Source: Acidobacteriota bacterium | GTDB lineage: Bacteria > Acidobacteriota > Terriglobia > Terriglobales > Acidobacteriaceae | Assembly: GCA_021805955.1 (NCBI GenBank) | Contig: JAJZDO010000922.1 | Location: 1-5,778, forward strand | Direction: 5' to 3' | DNA length: 5,778 bases | Shown here: in pieces, positions 74 to 5,721 of the stretch | How positions within the stretch are numbered: position 1 is the stretch's first letter | Layout of the letters: every line of letters begins with the position of its first letter | Position numbers and translations under genes: made by a program | Notes under the pieces: model-generated | Databases searched by the model: none | What the model was told of the DNA's origin: nothing | What the model saw: the letters and a program-made list of their open reading frames with translations, nothing else

Positions 74-128
74 CGAAGGCCCCTCACACTTGAGAAATAT
101 GAATACTGGCAGTTGCGGTTCGGGAACT

Positions 129-491
129 TTAGATTCCCCAGAGCCAGCTCAGGACATTGACCGCAAGCACGGCGATGCCGGTCCCGGCGGCCACGCCGGC
201 CAGCGCCTTCTTTGCACCCGGCTCGCCATGCGCAAACTGATAGCCGCCGATCACAATGGCGATTAGGCTCGCCACCCTGGCAACCGTCCCAGTAAAGAGG
301 AGCTGGAGCGCGGTGAACCCTGTATCGAATGGCGATCCGCTCTGCGCAAGCGCGGCGAGTGGGAAGAGAAGCGGCAGCGCCACCATCAGAATCGTCGGCC
401 ACCAGCGGCAGCGATGTTTTTCAGACAGCGCTTCGGAAGACTTCCTGCCCGGCTTCTGCGGTAAGCTATCGGGAATCCTTTGTGGAATCAT
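129..491 (-). CDS. VirB2/TrbC-family conjugative pilin precursor
   Basis: Predicted major pilin subunit of a type IV secretion conjugation machine, inserted in the inner membrane and then assembled into the pilus. The product is 120 residues. A polar n-region (1-31) precedes a hydrophobic signal core (about 32-48) ending in ALA-Q, with predicted signal peptidase I cleavage after residue 49. The mature protein is about 71 residues with two hydrophobic helices (about 60-85 and 97-118). A short loop containing GEPGAKK joins them, the standard VirB2/TrbC hairpin. A long signal and a small two-helix mature domain fit the family. The ATG at 489-491 is chosen because GGAGG (497-501) lies 5 nt upstream and overlaps the alternative GTG start at 495-497. 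The next gene of the operon probably starts at 73. A motif shared with the xis promoter lies upstream. Confidence 0.85.
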   Translation of the reverse strand: MIPQRIPDSLPQKPGRKSSEALSEKHRCRWWPTILMVALPLLFPLAALAQSGSPFDTGFTALQLLFTGTVARVASLIAIVIGGYQFAHGEPGAKKALAGVAAGTGIAVLAVNVLSWLWGI

Positions 492-496
492 TGGCA

Positions 497-501
497 CCTC
501 C
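497..501 (-). promoter_or_regulatory. Ribosome binding site of the pilin gene
   Basis: GGAGG on the minus strand lies 5 nt upstream of the ATG at 489-491. It overlaps the GTG codon at 495-497, which would otherwise be a longer start, so it decides in favour of the ATG. Confidence 0.7.
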
Positions 502-554
502 GACGGCCCAGAATTTCTCCGTCACGTGCCAAAAGTTAGCGCCGCTTTTCCGAT

Positions 555-601
555 CCGTCCAAGACTTCTTGTCTATGGCGCCATATACCGCAGCTATGGC
601 C
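555..601 (-). promoter_or_regulatory. Bipartite operator/promoter motif upstream of the pilin operon
   Basis: Read on the minus strand, this contains a CCATAG box (594-599), a second CCATAG box (573-578) exactly 21 bp further on, then ACAAGAAGTC and TTGGAC (557-562). The same arrangement with identical spacing lies upstream of the excisionase gene at 3817-3863. The pilin copy also contains a perfect palindrome, CAAGA-AG-TCTTG (560-571). TTGGAC could act as a -35 box: TAACTT (533-538) follows after 18 bp and keeps the conserved TA...T positions of a -10 element. The pilin ATG is 63 bp downstream. Conservation of both sequence and spacing at two separate promoters is seen directly. Binding by a regulator is inferred. 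Confidence 0.65.
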
Positions 602-756
602 AATTGTGCATGTCTGCGCTATGACCATGCCATCGATGAACTCCGCATGGAAATGGGTCGATGCTACGTTTCCTTCGTCTCGATTTGCGACTTGGACCAA
701 TCGAACATCACTCCCGGCTATATGCGCGTTTATTAGGGGCTGACGGCCCTTGATTT

Positions 757-993
757 TTAGCGTGTGGCCCAGTCGTCGGGATGCATGCTGATGTAAGCGC
801 GGGCCGCAGCGCGGACTTCTGAATCGACAGTTGACGGGTCTACCCTTCCGTCCGCACCCAGCCGCACGCGGTCCAGTGCTTGAATTGTGAAGGGCGACCT
901 GAGTACCAGCCTTTTCATCCCTACCGCCCGCTTCAGCCCAATGATTGCATCGTGAAGGTCAATCCCGAGAATCTTTTCCGATTCCATAGCCAT
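757..993 (-). CDS. Hypothetical 78-residue protein
   Basis: I do not recognise the family. The product is small and soluble-looking, with no signal peptide or membrane segment. It has an N-terminal acidic/amphipathic part (KILGIDLHDAIIGLK), a central basic stretch (MKRLVLRSPF) and a C-terminal part with DSEVRAAARAYISMHPDDW. The ATG at 991-993 has GAGGAG (3-nt spacer after the full hexamer, 5 nt after GAGG), which is a good ribosome binding site and the main reason to believe the gene. A second ATG two codons in (985-987) could also serve. It is read in the same direction as the pilin operon but ends 265 bp before the pilin start, with a putative promoter between, so it need not be cotranscribed. 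It diverges from the 474-residue gene across about 100 bp. It may be ICE cargo or a small regulator, but nothing in the sequence says which. Confidence 0.6.
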   Translation of the reverse strand: MAMESEKILGIDLHDAIIGLKRAVGMKRLVLRSPFTIQALDRVRLGADGRVDPSTVDSEVRAAARAYISMHPDDWATR

Positions 994-1021
994 TCGCTCC
1001 TCAATAAAGGCTAAACCGAAC

Positions 1022-1035
1022 CGACGTACGACGTA
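1022..1035. repeat. Tandem 7-bp repeat in a divergent promoter region
   Basis: CGACGTA occurs twice with no gap (1022-1028 and 1029-1035), between the divergent starts of the 78-residue and 474-residue genes. It might be a small operator. It is short enough to be chance. Confidence 0.35.
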
Positions 1036-1094
1036 AGTAGGCCCACTATTCCCGCTGTCGGACTGAGTGGCATTTGCTGTATCTTCAATTCGTT

Positions 1095-2519
1095 ATGAAG
1101 GAACTGATTGCCCACCAGCGGAATCTGTTCGCGGTCCTTGAAGAGCTCTTCGAGCGCGCGACTGGAACGAGCCCGAAGAAGTTCGCTCCCTTGAGTCAAT
1201 TCACGGAAAAAGTGAGATCGTTGAGTTCGAGAGCGACTGACGTGCAAAAAGCGTTCGAGTGGGCCGAGCCCGAACTTAACAGGGTCTACAGAACTGTGGA
1301 ACCCTACCAGCACGCTGCGGAATTGGGTGGGATCAAAGCGGTCATGGGTGGAGGCGCCCACTTCAGGACGACGCAATTCGCCGCAGCCAAGAGAATGGTT
1401 CTCTACACCGATTCGGTTCTGATCCCGGACCCCATTTTCGCTTTGATCGAAGCTGAGCGCCCAGAGGAAAGATTCCGTTCGGTTCGAATCCTGGAGGAAA
1501 TGTTCTTTATTCTCCGGCTGAAGCCCCTCGTTGACGCGGACCTCGGCATCCCGCCAGTGCTCGTATTTCCCAGTTTTGACAGGTTTCTTCAGCAACACGA
1601 CCAAACAAGCCGTGAAAAGCTCACAGAATTCGTGGGAGGCACACTGGGCGTCCTTCTCAATCTCCCGCTGACCTGTATTGAGGATGCGGTGGCATTTGCG
1701 ACCGCGCATCCGGAAGAATTCCTGGACGCTGTGAGAGTCAAGCAACTACTGGTCGCGCCTGGCGGGCCGATTGGGGAGCCTCTCGACGAAGCCCTGCGCC
1801 GTTACATCAGCGAGATTGGGGAATGGCGCACTCCCTCTTACATGTCCTTTATGAGCAGCCTCTCGGACGCGCAAAAGGTCTGCAACGCTTTACTGGAGAG
1901 GCTCGAACCCCAGTTCCACTTGATTGAAAACTCAATCGCGATGAGGGCGCAGCCTCTTCTATCGGTAGAACAGCAAGCTTATTATTTCAAATTGTGCGCA
2001 GCGGCCTGTAGTGATTCTCTTGAGAGAAGATTGACGATCTCCGCCACCACGCGGGCAATGATCGACGCTTTAGCAACTCAACAGTTCGAATGGCTGTCGA
2101 ATGCAACAATCGAAGCGCTCGTAGAAATGCGCCTCAATAATGAGAACGAACATTTCAGGAAGCGTTTAGCCGAATCAACCTCGATTCTGCGGGATGCAGA
2201 TTTCGAAGATATAGACCGGGTTGCGGCAGAGGTAGCCTCGGGAATTGGGGGACTCCTGAACGATTACCGCAGTGAAGCAAAGAGGCTCGATGAGAAATAT
2301 CGGCGCAAATACAGTGGCTTGGCAGGTGCTAGCTGGCTTTCTTTGGGCGCGTTTCTTATACCGTACCTCGCGCCGCTCGTCGCGGCGGTACCGGGACTCA
2401 CACTAGCTGGAAAATATGCCATGACAAAGATCGAGGAGACGGGCGAACGAAAGGATCTCGCCAACTCGCTCATAGGTATATTGGCAAATGCGCAAAATGA
2501 TCAGGGCGAGGCAGAGTAG
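1095..2519 (+). CDS. Large hypothetical protein with hydrophobic segment near the C-terminus, probable cargo gene
   Basis: Unrecognised family, 474 residues from ATG 1095. There is no signal peptide. Most of the chain looks alpha-helical and soluble. Recognisable stretches are a charged amphipathic N-terminus (1-60), a GG-rich turn (78-88), a mixed hydrophobic core (about 97-165, with LVFPSFDRF), a helical middle (195-320) and a strongly charged helical region (about 335-408, with NNENEHFRKR and EAKRLDEKYRRK) that may be coiled coil. A hydrophobic stretch (about 412-440) follows, rich in Leu, Ala, Gly and Pro, able to form one or two membrane helices, and then a short polar tail. The start is uncertain: the ATG has no clear Shine-Dalgarno sequence, a TTG at 1074 is in frame with GAGTGG just upstream, and the frame stays open back to 1041. 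The gene stands alone between the conjugation and integration modules, a place typical for cargo. A defence role is possible but unsupported by any motif I can name. Confidence 0.75.
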   Translation: MKELIAHQRNLFAVLEELFERATGTSPKKFAPLSQFTEKVRSLSSRATDVQKAFEWAEPELNRVYRTVEPYQHAAELGGIKAVMGGGAHFRTTQFAAAKRMVLYTDSVLIPDPIFALIEAERPEERFRSVRILEEMFFILRLKPLVDADLGIPPVLVFPSFDRFLQQHDQTSREKLTEFVGGTLGVLLNLPLTCIEDAVAFATAHPEEFLDAVRVKQLLVAPGGPIGEPLDEALRRYISEIGEWRTPSYMSFMSSLSDAQKVCNALLERLEPQFHLIENSIAMRAQPLLSVEQQAYYFKLCAAACSDSLERRLTISATTRAMIDALATQQFEWLSNATIEALVEMRLNNENEHFRKRLAESTSILRDADFEDIDRVAAEVASGIGGLLNDYRSEAKRLDEKYRRKYSGLAGASWLSLGAFLIPYLAPLVAAVPGLTLAGKYAMTKIEETGERKDLANSLIGILANAQNDQGEAE

Positions 2520-2655
2520 TCGCGATTTCCAGCTTATCCCCGCAGTGGATGGTCATAGCTACCCGAAAGCGGCATGTGTTTATTCAGCTAACGCGATGAA
2601 AGCTCAACTGACGCATTCAGACCAATGTGCTCATTCAGGAGCCGCAGTGAATTGC

Positions 2656-3609
2656 TCATGCAAGCAACGTCATCTGAAGATCATTCGTATGTTTCCTGTT
2701 AGGCGTGCGTTTGGCGGGTTTGAAGTTGCTTGCTTTCCTGAAATGACGGATCAAGACCGGAAATGCGGGATGCTCCGCATGGACGGGATGCACAAAGGCA
2801 GTGTCCGCAGTCCATTTGATGTTTGCTATGGGCCGCGTCGTGAGGTTTGGTTCAAGCGGCGTTTTCTGGTCGATCAACGCCAGCCCACTGCTGCTCTGCA
2901 CCATCCACTGAATGTCCATTGGTGTCGTTGCCAGACAGGCCACGTCCGGCGTAATTCCAATCTCTCCCAGCATTTCCATCAGGCGAGCGTGCGCCTCGTG
3001 ATGCGCTTCAGGATTGCGAAATATTTTCAGCCTCTTCGTAAGCTCTGATGGCTGAATCTCGATTTGCTGCGCCAGCGGGTCATCGGCACGCATGCAGACG
3101 ACCAGTAGAGCAGACGCAACCGGTTCCACAAGCCATTGGTCACCGCTGATTGGAAGAGGGAGTACTGCCGCCTCGAGGCTTTTCTCCTCCATGCGGCGAA
3201 GGATTTGTGCCGGATCGCCGCCGTGAAACTGCGTCTCGCAGCCAGGAAACAGGCTGGCGTAGGCATCACTCAGAGAGCGCAGAACATTCTGCTGGACAAA
3301 GCAGGAGAAGCCGATTCTCAAGGGCGGAACCTCTCCGCAATGGACTGCGCGAGCGGCCTGGATGATCTCGTTTCTCAACTTCACCGCTTCGATCGCATAG
3401 GAAACGATCATTTGCCCGGCGGGCGTGATGCGCACTCCGTCGTGATGGCGCACGAAGATCTGAATGCCGATGCCGTCTTCGAGGTCTTTGATCTGCTTGC
3501 TCAGCGAGGGCTGCGCCAGAAAGAGCCGCTCAGCGGCGCGCGTGAAATTCCCGGTCTCGGCGATGGCCGCGATGTACTTCAGGTGGCGAAACTCGACTAG
3601 ATCGAACAT
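2656..3609 (-). CDS. LysR-family transcriptional regulator
   Basis: Cytoplasmic DNA-binding regulator, 317 residues, close to the usual LTTR length of about 300. The N-terminal winged helix-turn-helix is clear. FRHLKYIAAIAETGNFTRAA (7-26) is followed by QPSLSKQIKDLE (33-44) as recognition helix, then the wing with ITPAG (61-65). A linker helix (about 66-90) leads to the effector-binding fold starting at PLRIGFSCF (96-104), with a second lobe near residues 160-265. The ATG at 3607-3609 is chosen because it begins directly before the conserved domain and has GGAG 9 nt upstream. The open frame continues 38 codons further to a TTG at 3723, which would overlap the likely promoter. It is transcribed away from xis across a 365-bp region and converges on the 474-residue gene with 136 bp between stops. 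LTTRs usually act on a divergent neighbour, so control of the xis-int promoter is a reasonable inference. The coinducer is unknown. Confidence 0.93.
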   Translation of the reverse strand: MFDLVEFRHLKYIAAIAETGNFTRAAERLFLAQPSLSKQIKDLEDGIGIQIFVRHHDGVRITPAGQMIVSYAIEAVKLRNEIIQAARAVHCGEVPPLRIGFSCFVQQNVLRSLSDAYASLFPGCETQFHGGDPAQILRRMEEKSLEAAVLPLPISGDQWLVEPVASALLVVCMRADDPLAQQIEIQPSELTKRLKIFRNPEAHHEAHARLMEMLGEIGITPDVACLATTPMDIQWMVQSSSGLALIDQKTPLEPNLTTRPIANIKWTADTAFVHPVHAEHPAFPVLIRHFRKASNFKPAKRTPNRKHTNDLQMTLLA

Positions 3610-3717
3610 GCCTCGGCACTCCAAAACCGAAGGCAGCGCGCAAAGAACTTCAGAAAATGCAGGTCGAACTTTTTGCTTCCATCTTTTCTGCTCCAGATTC
3701 GGTGAGCTTTCTGTCGC

Positions 3718-3723
3718 TGTCAA
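3718..3723 (-). promoter_or_regulatory. Possible -35 box of the lysR-type gene
   Basis: TTGACA on the minus strand is a perfect sigma-70 -35 hexamer, 108 bp upstream of the regulator ATG. The hexamer 17 bp downstream (GAATCT) is a poor -10, so this is tentative. Confidence 0.25.
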
Positions 3724-3766
3724 TTGGGCACTTTTTTGTTCCCCTGACTTGCGCGCGCAGGTGCGG

Positions 3767-3780
3767 CTATAGACAGAAGC
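3767..3780 (+). repeat. Extra half-site related to the CCATAG box
   Basis: CTATAGACAGAAGC closely resembles the conserved boxes CCATAGACCGAAGG (3819-3832) and CCATAGACAGGAAG (3840-3853). It starts 52 bp, about five helical turns, before the first of them. It may be an auxiliary operator, or an operator serving the divergent lysR-type gene. Confidence 0.4.
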
Positions 3781-3816
3781 TATCGCACCCCCTCAAAACG
3801 CCGGATTTGTGGGCCT

Positions 3817-3863
3817 GTCCATAGACCGAAGGCATGGCTCCATAGACAGGAAGTATTGGACAG
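3817..3863 (+). promoter_or_regulatory. Bipartite operator/promoter motif upstream of xis-int
   Basis: CCATAG boxes at 3819-3824 and 3840-3845 are exactly 21 bp apart. The second continues into ACAGGAAGTA and TTGGAC (3856-3861). The copy before the pilin operon (555-601, minus) aligns without gaps over 47 positions: 33 of 38 positions match outside a 9-bp spacer that is completely different. The two flanking heptamers CCTGTCC (3814-3820) and GGACAGG (3858-3864) also form a perfect inverted pair here. The xis start codon lies 111 bp beyond the motif. No good -10 follows TTGGAC at this site, so the motif is better read as a regulator binding site than as a plain promoter. Confidence 0.65.
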
Positions 3864-3962
3864 GAGTGCAAATTCGCCGGACTCTGAGGAAAAGACGGTC
3901 ATCGAGATTCGCCGCAGCATTCAAAGCGAGCCAACCGAGTGAAGTTTCCGATGACCCTTCCC

Positions 3963-3970
3963 AGGAGGTG
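3963..3970 (+). promoter_or_regulatory. Ribosome binding site of the excisionase-like gene
   Basis: AGGAGGTG is a near-perfect Shine-Dalgarno sequence, with AGGAGG 6 nt before the ATG at 3975. It is the strongest such site in the window and fixes this start. Confidence 0.8.
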
Positions 3971-3974
3971 AGTC

Positions 3975-4280
3975 ATGTCTACAGCAACCTCACGAACCAG
4001 CAATCTTCTTTATCCACCAGCGCAGGCTAAAAATTCTGTCTCAGAGCGGGTGGTTGGGATCGATACAAATCGGGACGAACGCCTGTTAAATGCGCGGCAG
4101 GTGGCTGACAGGCTGGGCGTGTCGGAGCGGTTCATTCGTGACCATACAACGCGGCGGTCTCCCAGGATTCCCGCCGTGAAGCTGGGAAAGCTCATTCGCT
4201 ATCGCCGCGCCGATGTCGATCTCTTCATGGCGGAGTTGGACACGCTTTCCTCTTTCCGTCGCTCTCGACTTGGTGTATGA
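3975..4280 (+). CDS. Excisionase-like helix-turn-helix DNA-binding protein
   Basis: Small DNA-binding protein of the excisionase/AlpA-like HTH_17 type (MerR-like winged helix), 101 residues. Residues 37-57, LLNARQVADRLGVSERFIRDH, form the helix-turn-helix. The wing and closing part KLGKLIRYRRADVDLFM (69-85) follows, as is typical of this fold. The first 35 residues are polar and probably disordered, and a short basic tail ends the protein. Xis-type proteins bend attachment-site DNA and bias the integrase towards excision; many also act as transcription regulators. The int gene starts 52 bp downstream on the same strand, so the pair is probably one operon read from the motif-bearing region upstream. 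The alternative is a general AlpA-type transcriptional activator of int. Confidence 0.85.
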   Translation: MSTATSRTSNLLYPPAQAKNSVSERVVGIDTNRDERLLNARQVADRLGVSERFIRDHTTRRSPRIPAVKLGKLIRYRRADVDLFMAELDTLSSFRRSRLGV

Positions 4281-4332: not shown

Positions 4333-5640
4333 ATGGCAATGAAGTATCAGAAAGGTACCGTCTACCTGCGAGGGCAGAAGGTGAAGATGTGGTATGGGAA
4401 GTACACCGTGTACTTTCGCAATGAAACAGGAAAGGAGGCTAGCAAGAGACGCAATGTCCCGCTCTGTCCAAAGGCTGGAACGCCGAAGTGGAAAGCGGAG
4501 CAGATGTTGCATACGATCATTCTCAATGAGACCGGAGTTCCAGCCAAAACTTCCAGCATCACAGCGGATGAGTCTGTAACGTTTCGCTGGTTTGTGGAGG
4601 AACGCTACATTCCCATGCGACAGGGGGCATGGAGTCCGGCATATCGAAAGATCAATTCCTACGAGATTCAACACTATCTCGTGAATCACTTTGGCCGAAT
4701 TCCGCTCAATCAGCTTGGAACATTTGAGATTCAAGTCTGGTTGAACAAGCTGGCTGGAAGTTATTCCCAGTCGGTCGTCCGTCACTGCTATATCAACATT
4801 CGTTCGATCATGCATATGGCCGTAAAACTGAACTTTCTGCCCAAAGATCCGGCAGAGGATGTCATCATGCCGCAGACCAAGCCGGTTGAGAAACCCCGGA
4901 TGACGCGGGAGCAAATTCTTGCGTTGATCGGGGGGATTCAAGACCTGCACGACTTGTGTCTGATGTACGTTGGCATATTCTGCGGTCCGCGTGCCAGTGA
5001 GGTTCTGGGTCTGCAATGGAAGTCCTGGACGGGTAGCGCGTTGGTTCCGCACGGGACTGCGTTCGAGGGGCAGTTTTATCCTGGCCGGTTCAAGAACCGC
5101 TCCAGTCAGGCTCCCATCGGCGTGCCGGAGCAGGTGCGGCCCATCATCGAAGCGTGGAAGCGAGGTTGTGCCGATCCGTCGCCGGAGGCTTTGATGTTTC
5201 CCACGTTCGGTCGGGGGGAGCGGAAAGGCGAAGCGGTACCGCGCTGGGGCAAGAACTTCCTGAAATGGCGGATTCGTCCGATTGCCAGGAAGGTCGGCAT
5301 CCCAGATCGCCTTGTCACCTTTCAGGTGATGCGACGGACACTGGGGACCGACATGCAGAAGCACGGCTCAATCAAAGACGCGCAAGGGGCACTCCGACAC
5401 GCCAGCATCAAGACCACTGGCGATGTCTACGTGCAGACTATCGAGGACAGCGTGCTGGGCGCGATGAACTCCCGTACAACTGGAATTCTTGCAGGATGGG
5501 AACATCCAGCTTTGACGGATAGAACCACGCCCGTGCAGGACACAAAGGAAGCGGATAAAAGGAGAAATTCCGTGCGGGTTTCACTACAACTGGACCAAGT
5601 TGGACCAAGCAGCGAAGGGAGGGTGAGTGCAAGTGCTTGA
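4333..5640 (+). CDS. int: Tyrosine recombinase / phage-type integrase
   Basis: Site-specific recombinase of 435 residues, expected to catalyse integration and excision at tRNA-Asn. The N-terminal part (1-75) resembles an arm-binding domain. The core-binding SAM-like domain covers about 83-180. The catalytic domain runs from about 187: box I Arg220 in GPRASEVLGLQW, probable hairpin Lys254, box II Arg334 in QVMRRTLGTD, His356 in LRHAS, and the nucleophile Tyr366 in GDVYVQ. The usual His of the HxxR motif is Gln331. ATG 4333 is chosen because GGAG lies 7 nt upstream and the MAMKYQKG start fits the family. The frame is open back to ATG 4213, but that would overlap xis by 68 bp without a ribosome binding site. 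The low-complexity C-terminal tail (about 395-435) is encoded by DNA next to the attachment site, and the stop is 6 bp from the tRNA. Confidence 0.93.
   Translation: MAMKYQKGTVYLRGQKVKMWYGKYTVYFRNETGKEASKRRNVPLCPKAGTPKWKAEQMLHTIILNETGVPAKTSSITADESVTFRWFVEERYIPMRQGAWSPAYRKINSYEIQHYLVNHFGRIPLNQLGTFEIQVWLNKLAGSYSQSVVRHCYINIRSIMHMAVKLNFLPKDPAEDVIMPQTKPVEKPRMTREQILALIGGIQDLHDLCLMYVGIFCGPRASEVLGLQWKSWTGSALVPHGTAFEGQFYPGRFKNRSSQAPIGVPEQVRPIIEAWKRGCADPSPEALMFPTFGRGERKGEAVPRWGKNFLKWRIRPIARKVGIPDRLVTFQVMRRTLGTDMQKHGSIKDAQGALRHASIKTTGDVYVQTIEDSVLGAMNSRTTGILAGWEHPALTDRTTPVQDTKEADKRRNSVRVSLQLDQVGPSSEGRVSASA
5590..5609 (+). repeat. Tandem 10-bp repeat near the attachment site
   Basis: YTGGACCAAG occurs twice back to back (5590-5599 and 5600-5609), inside the integrase C-terminal codons and about 40 bp from the tRNA end. 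Tandem short repeats flanking an att core are typical arm-type integrase or Xis binding sites. A related TTGGACCAA also occurs at 692-700. Confidence 0.4.
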
Positions 5641-5645
5641 AAAGA

Positions 5646-5721
<76 letters not shown>

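Follow-up and report, generated by a model that had tools for sequence, protein, structure and literature searches.

The 5,778-nt stretch of DNA analysed here (hereafter the window), from an acidobacterial contig (JAJZDO010000922.1), represents one end of an integrative and conjugative element (ICE), as judged from its gene content read with Pfam, NCBIfam and ARAGORN. The element encodes a LysR-type transcriptional regulator (LTTR) between two short promoters, one in front of the excisionase and integrase genes (xis-int) and the other in front of the pilin operon, and both promoters carry the same pair of tandem boxes. We consider it very probable that the element's own LysR binds both promoters at a distal recognition site and a proximal activation site, co-activating the excision and pilus genes. 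How an integrated element keeps its exit from the chromosome in step with the building of its transfer machine is a standing question, and the answer would here lie in directly testable DNA, i.e., two short promoters and one regulator, which are kept across acidobacterial ICEs though integrases and neighbouring tRNA genes differ.

The original prediction held that the minus strand at 555-601 and the plus strand at 3817-3863 carry one 47-bp motif, each copy reading towards its operon. This was borne out by the ungapped alignment, in which 33 of 47 positions are identical and none of these falls in the 9-nt spacer, i.e., 33/38 outside it, with CCATAG boxes 21 bp apart in both copies. The genes and strands are also as claimed, one copy preceding a trbC/virB2 pilin gene (TrbC, E 4e-11) and the other an HTH_17 xis gene and a tyrosine integrase gene. 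The spacer, which had been described as free, is instead the middle of an operator, as the first CCATAG, the spacer and ATGG together make one T-N11-A dyad (CCAT-N11-ATGG). By its symmetry the motif is predicted to consist of a tandem pair of LysR-type (T-N11-A) boxes, centred 21 bp from each other, of which the second enters a terminal TTGGAC that is best read as a -35 hexamer. The four closest matches in the window to CCATAG-N7-CTATGG, each with 1-2 mismatches, lie at 581, 3767, 3819 and 3840, all in these two intergenic regions, and those with three mismatches are at 560, the second pilin-side box, and at 2813, inside lysR. In a repeat search the 28-nt core of the two-promoter match (89%) ranked first of the inverted pairs, the next pair (28 nt) having 71%, and the three xis-side copies were the first direct family listed.

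Related elements were collected with a profile from 32 LysR proteins, giving 80 loci in the genome collection, of which L001-L030 are relatives and L031-L080, distant LysR genes, served as control. The nearest relatives (L001-L009) are 80-87% identical and come from acidobacterial records including Acidipila rosea, and a LysR at E 1e-60 or better was present in 22 of the 200 genomes surveyed (the family of one host). Removing matches that start past profile position 8 and duplicates sharing the first 300 nt reduced 88 hidden Markov model matches to 54 distinct lysR genes, with the short pattern-search loci L081-L110 kept outside this set. Whether the motif holds its positions in relatives had been raised with the original prediction, and on both sides it does. 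TTGGAC occurs once, 120-314 nt upstream of lysR and reading away from it, in 53/54 relatives versus 0/50 distant LysR loci; L110, a LysR relative outside the 54, has it at 351 nt, beyond the counted range. The pilin-side site is present in 48/51 testable elements, a further three of the 54 stopping at contig ends; 44 of these sites were found by the TTGGAC anchor, and four, in L013, L141, L029 and L021 (TTAGAC), were recovered by matrix. Nine of the 54 had no accepted pilin-side anchor and L029 no xis-side anchor, the pilin-side sites of L030, L015 and L017 were hand-picked, and L013 has a pilin-side site that the length rule had dropped. When related elements were scanned with a matrix, as had been proposed, the two sites were the top two positions of the locus over both strands in 42/44 elements, each matrix being built without the tested element and all elements with at least 70% LysR identity. 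Both sites persist together in LysR relatives down to about 37% identity.

For the geometry of the sites, those of the 44 relatives were anchored on TTGGAC, and dyad symmetry was taken as the mean of the 26 elements left after dereplication at 70% LysR identity. At both promoters the two highest of all centres lie 28 and 7 bp before TTGGAC, with symmetries of 0.61 and 0.44 on the pilin side (mean of all centres 0.245, standard deviation 0.072) and of 0.45 and 0.55 on the xis side (mean 0.25, standard deviation 0.062). A -10-like hexamer follows after 18 bp. On the pilin side it reads TAnnnT, with T first in 39, A second in 34 and T last in 38 of the 44 elements; on the xis side it reads nAnnnT, with A second in 42 and T last in 41. 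Given a transcription start about 7 nt past this predicted hexamer, the boxes would be centred near -65 and -44, and the layout of a distal box near -65 and a proximal box at -35 holds if the predicted TTGGAC-N18-TAnnnT promoter is right. The available parts of two published accounts place LTTR recognition sites usually near -65 and activation sites at -35/-10 (PMC8407307), and an LTTR tetramer on both (PMC12609908). Of the hallmarks of LTTR-controlled promoters, the window has a T-N11-A dyad (CCAT-N11-ATGG at 3819-3837) and a regulator gene divergent from a target.

The two sites of an element also resemble one another more than they resemble the sites of other elements. Over the 42 nt before TTGGAC, the xis and pilin sites shared 26.1 within an element versus 19.9 between elements (0/20,000 permutations), and 25.6 versus 18.9 in the 26 dereplicated elements, where no permutation reached the observed value. 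Similarity between sites of different elements grows with LysR identity, from 17.6 (<40%) to 27.8 (75-95%). Arms can change in pairs, e.g., L013 has the box CCATAC-N7-GTATGG instead of CCATAG-N7-CTATGG, with CCATAC-N7-GTATAG as its pilin-side box, and in the divergent L129 and L028 the operators are of quite another sequence, yet match within each element.

That both promoters share a binder had been predicted, with the choice between LysR and the helix-turn-helix (HTH) protein left open; the comparison supports a shared binder and the data point to LysR. Among the 31 elements with a Pfam-confirmed integrase, the xis-side site follows LysR (r 0.84; partial r 0.83 corrected for integrase, 0/2000 permutations) and not the integrase (partial r -0.004 corrected for LysR, 1012/2000 permutations). 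A first comparison, on 36 open reading frames (ORFs) picked by length and place, gave partial r of 0.78 for LysR and -0.02 for the integrase; L154, L025, L160, L155 and L158 were dropped for the 31-element test. The xis-side site follows LysR and not the integrase, the two proteins that the test covered, and this points to LysR as the probable binder.

Random scatter through the host genome had been named as evidence that would count against the motif, and near-exact matches proved to be nearly confined to such loci. When one mismatch at most was allowed, the 21-nt pattern MATAGNNNNGAAGTNTTGGAC had 31 matches in 15 genomes versus 3 for a reversed control, and 30 of the 31 are at lysR loci of this kind. 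Loci already collected account for 28; the other three, two of them found through the motif, are one probable remnant (broken lysR, short integrase match), another divergent lysR flanked by a site on either side, and one background match. The motif is therefore usable as a finder, having led to two loci that protein searches had missed, the probable remnant and the further element. Looser patterns were set aside, since the two-mismatch version gave 64 matches versus 46 for the control, mostly background, and the bare CCATAG-N7-CTATGG with one mismatch, at 34 places versus 27 in six genomes, is too weak alone as a genome-wide probe. In one genome, G006 (L018, L143, L153, L178), three such lysR loci occur alongside a probable remnant, and their operators differ. 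Since the sites persist and change together and near-exact matches elsewhere are almost absent, the comparison favours an element-encoded, tandem-binding factor that acts at both promoters and is kept by selection, much as the original prediction supposed.

The sites with their symmetry and spacing, their conservation across the family, their co-variation and their restriction to these loci are observed; from these we infer binding, a tetramer, activation rather than repression, the start sites and a signal, in the following scheme. The LysR encoded between the two sites would act on the paired operator-promoters, one dimer sitting on the distal T-N11-A box (about -65) and the other on the proximal box (about -44) that enters the TTGGAC -35. 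On a signal, the tetramer would bring RNA polymerase to a promoter whose -10 is poor and whose spacer measures 18 bp. A single regulator would in this way turn on xis-int, i.e., excision, and the virB2/trbC pilus operon, i.e., transfer, together, and it would probably tune its own gene through a third box (3767-3785), which may serve lysR autoregulation. The comparative data support the claim that one element-encoded factor switches excision and transfer together, as far as sequence comparison reaches.

Several observations limit this scheme or weigh against it. The bare count of 33/47 is marginal, as one of 30 Markov shuffles of the window (forward versus reverse complement) reached 33 and at least four more reached 32; the significance of the paired sites comes from their position, symmetry and relatives and not from the identity count. 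The pilin-side site was not found in L142, L014 and L147 (4.5-5.9 kb searched), nor the xis-side site in L029, the proximal pilin-side box is diverged in L019, L020 and L024, and L152 and L156 fail the rank test with their cluster left out. The invariance of TTGGAC in the sequence logos is by construction, because the sites were anchored on it. Five of the 36 long ORFs beyond the xis-side site (L154, L025, L160, L155 and L158) are not Pfam integrases. The true partner gave the best match, alone or tied, in no more than 11 of the 26 dereplicated elements. The DNA-binding and ligand domains of LysR, compared as predictors of the xis-side operator, were not separable (partial r 0.30 versus 0.38) and this comparison was dropped; because the two domains predict the operator about equally, co-descent within an element explains part of the correlation. 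Finally, the sign of regulation is argued from geometry only.

This last point bears on the reading in which LysR binds both sites but mainly represses, holding excision and transfer off in the host chromosome until a signal releases them. A quiescent element needs silencing, and the available part of one source links LTTR distal sites often to repression and autoregulation (PMC8407307). However, the proximal box enters the -35 and leaves the -10 free, the distal box lies near -65 and the target hexamers depart strongly from consensus, as at LTTR-activated promoters, and TraR and TciR, LysR regulators of other ICEs, are activators in the accessible portions of the papers on them, so that we regard a mainly repressing LysR as unlikely.

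The reading that the pair is due to chance, or to a promoter fragment recently duplicated within the element, gains something from the one window shuffle that reached 33/47, but the pair is kept in 48/51 testable elements with diverged spacers and a fixed geometry, and recent duplication was rejected on this ground. Moreover, the base before TTGGAC is A on the xis side and C on the pilin side in 16/44 elements and the reverse in none; a difference kept in this way means that the copies are not a recent duplication, which agrees with the original prediction, and the probability left to chance or duplication is practically negligible. Another candidate binder is the HTH_17 protein (Xis), or the sites might be integrase arm sites, with the pilin copy as a by-product. 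Xis proteins bind short repeats, the xis-side copy adjoins xis, and an HTH_17 gene follows the site in 5/6 loci, also where the integrase is unrecognised. The pilin-side copy, however, lies kilobases away from the attachment site, the window and L001 have identical 42-nt sites with integrases only 30% identical, and the integrase arm site was rejected for want of any partial correlation with the integrase (-0.004, versus 0.83 for LysR, in the 31 elements), all of which makes this candidate very improbable. A host global regulator that binds both sites, the operator being borrowed from the host, is extremely improbable; it was rejected because the near-exact matches (30/31 in 15 genomes) keep to these elements, and a single genome, e.g., G006, can contain elements with differing operators.

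Activation by the element's own LysR, the reading we prefer, has relatives among known systems. SetCD of the SXT/R391 ICEs is a single element-encoded activator that drives both excision and transfer genes, and its protein family is unrelated to LysR. Classical LTTR promoters (BenM and CbnR type) govern metabolic genes, and the regulator gene is divergent from its target. The predicted layout of the sites in the ICE resembles theirs, as far as the accessible parts of the sources describe them, in a distal T-N11-A near -65, a proximal site at -35 and a tetramer model (PMC8407307, PMC12609908), whereas the array is doubled in the acidobacterial ICE and would couple two functions of a mobile element.

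The known precedent is TraR of the Tn4371-family ICEs (ICEKKS102Tn4677), for which the accessible part of the paper reports that overexpression raised xis 80-fold and traG about 3-fold, with excision and transfer also increased (PMC11448139). TraR is likewise an element-encoded LysR-type regulator whose T-N11-A site lies immediately before the -35 of the xis promoter (PMC11448139), a likeness at the level of LysR-type regulators. In the same part of that paper a single interrupted repeat makes up the xis site, and at traG there is a putative half site only (PMC11448139), whereas the acidobacterial element has full two-box operators at both promoters; the TraR operator given there, CGTTTTG...CAAAACG, is absent from the window sites, which by reading are of the CCATAG type. 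The acidobacterial element also differs from the Tn4371 ICEs in gene order, with lysR between xis-int and the pilin operon, and in host phylum. TciR of ICEclc is a LysR-type global activator whose deletion lowers transfer about 2000-fold, and the accessible portion of the paper describes no paired operators at xis and pilin promoters (PMC4063739). ICEs have been reported in acidobacteria, according to the part of the source available (PMC3158045), and no paper on LysR control of acidobacterial ICEs was among the literature matches listed. The acidobacterial system is a widespread variant of the TraR precedent, set apart by its host phylum, by the order of its genes and by full operators of another sequence at both promoters, and its natural set of diverged LysR-operator pairs offers material for studying how LTTR specificity evolves.

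Table 1. Positions of genes and predicted regulatory sites in the window, with the basis for each (RBS, recognition site; ABS, activation site).
Feature	Position	Strand	Basis
TrbC/VirB2 pilin gene	129..491	-	Pfam PF04956, E 4.1e-11 (run on 129-497)
Predicted -10 TAACTT, pilin operon promoter	533..538	-	conserved hexamer positions in 44 elements
Predicted -35 TTGGAC, pilin operon promoter	557..562	-	18-bp spacer to TAnnnT
Pilin-side proximal LysR box (predicted ABS)	560..578	-	centre 21 bp from distal box; enters -35 hexamer
Pilin-side distal LysR box (predicted RBS), CCATAG-N7-ATATGG, T-N11-A dyad	581..599	-	best window match, 1 mismatch
lysR, LysR-type regulator gene	2656..3609	-	Pfam HTH_1 5.7e-22 and LysR_substrate 3.9e-19
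Predicted -10 GAATCT of lysR	3695..3700	-	read from sequence; same hexamer in several close relatives
Predicted -35 TTGACA of lysR	3718..3723	-	read from sequence
Second palindrome GGGAAC-N6-GTGCCC, putative operator	3726..3743	-	2 bp upstream of lysR -35
Third LysR box CTATAG-N7-CTATCG, between lysR and xis promoter	3767..3785	+	pattern match; kept in close relatives
xis-side distal LysR box (predicted RBS), CCATAG-N7-GCATGG	3819..3837	+	pattern match, symmetry peak
xis-side proximal LysR box (predicted ABS)	3840..3858	+	overlaps -35 hexamer
Predicted -35 TTGGAC, xis-int promoter	3856..3861	+	found upstream of lysR in 53/54 relatives
Predicted -10 GACTCT, xis-int promoter, 18-bp spacer	3880..3885	+	conserved hexamer positions in 44 elements
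xis, HTH_17 excisionase-like protein	3975..4280	+	Pfam E 4.1e-9
Tyrosine integrase	4333..5640	+	Pfam Phage_integrase E 6.7e-8
tRNA-Asn gene, probable attachment site	5647..5721	-	ARAGORN

The element is an ICE by its gene content, as the window has integrase, xis, pilin and tRNA-Asn genes (Table 1) and the relative L005/L169 has a type IV secretion system (T4SS), a coupling protein and a TrwC relaxase. The operon behind the pilin site in L005/L169 encodes VirB2, VirB3, VirB4, VirB9, VirB10, TrbL/VirB6 and VirB8, and is followed by SSB, a VirB11-type ATPase, the coupling protein and the TrwC relaxase. Beyond the relaxase and its helicase-domain neighbour, L169 also encodes an MmeI-type restriction-modification protein and a YhcG-type nuclease (119-4041). 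In the window, lysR (minus strand) is divergent from xis-int (plus strand), an order shared by the relatives, and it lies between xis-int and the pilin operon, reading towards the pilin genes. Its protein has an N-terminal HTH_1 and a C-terminal substrate-binding domain, both above Pfam cut-offs, with BenM and OxyR among the PDB matches. The pilin gene starts at an ATG at 491 behind GGAGG (the ORF list has a GTG at 497), and xis scored 27.5 bits with the NCBIfam excise model, just below its 28.8 cut-off. A 23-nt inverted pair (74%; 3799-3821 and 3857-3879) brackets the xis-side operator. A search for attachment direct repeats with the tRNA end in three partial elements matched the query only, and the far ends may lie outside the fetched DNA; integrase and LysR scans of viral contigs gave no relative, and the 14 plasmid records matched held distant LTTRs only, all with <60% identity.

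Across the relatives, the genes behind the sites are largely of the expected kinds. On the xis side 36/44 elements have an ORF of at least 300 codons in the expected place, 31 of them matching Phage_integrase and the other five not; four of those five carry an HTH_17 gene next to the xis-side site. Small ORFs adjoining this site matched HTH_17 in 5/5 cases in one Pfam set (three above cut-off) and in 5/6 in a second (all five above cut-off), mostly from elements without a recognised integrase. The pilin side precedes an ORF recognised by the TrbC profile in 20/44 elements and, in 21 of the other 24, an ORF that by eye reads as a pilin of this kind too (in L015 partly so); five of these by-eye ORFs were run in Pfam, three matching TrbC below cut-off and two having no match. 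No pilin ORF was found at the pilin side of L017, L028 and L154.

The integrases themselves are apparently exchanged behind the xis-side site. As noted above, L001 shares the window's 42-nt site and not its integrase, and L143 and L145 have LysR proteins that are 98% identical, integrases that are 14% identical and sites that agree at 38/42. The window integrase gene ends adjoining tRNA-Asn, and a tRNA gene lies 1.8-2.3 kb from lysR, about the integrase end, in 33/54 elements, in eight kinds (Asn 7, Asp 7, Ala 5, Val 5, Glu 4, Phe 2, Gln 2 and Ser 1); it is farther off in two elements and there is none in 19 (up to 9 kb scanned). We take these tRNA genes to be the probable attachment sites. 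On the other side, the distance from the lysR end to the pilin-side TTGGAC varies from 28 nt (L013) to 3757 nt (L004), with 2096 nt in the window, and this stretch looks like an insertion point for cargo. In the window it holds two ORFs at 757-2519, which encode 78 aa and 481 aa and are both unmatched in Pfam. Put together, lysR and its two outward promoters could form a portable command module of acidobacterial ICEs, with integration cassettes, aimed at about eight tRNA targets, being swapped right behind one promoter, cargo inserted before the other, and the regulator and its operators drifting together into private specificities. We advance this tentatively, as a proposal whose chances fall slightly short of even; if it is true, several ICEs in one cell could be switched independently.

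The promoter of lysR carries a second palindrome just upstream of its predicted -35 (Table 1), which points to a further factor that may control lysR and is a candidate input for the whole switch. At least four of six arm pairs of GGNNAC-N6-GTNNCC are present at fixed spacing in 27/54 relatives, in a count made without a control and in which L152 is probably due to chance. Arm changes are paired, e.g., GGTCAC...GTGACC, and the fourth arm position is often unpaired. The palindrome with the adjoining ATTGACA, at most one mismatch allowed, was found at 14 places in 15 genomes versus none for the control; 12 of these are at lysR promoters of the same family, one (L175) lies before a truncated, different LysR and one is elsewhere. 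The second palindrome is not tied to one LysR lineage, because L175 has it before another kind of lysR, where the same palindrome and TTGACA precede the truncated gene at about 5857-6260.
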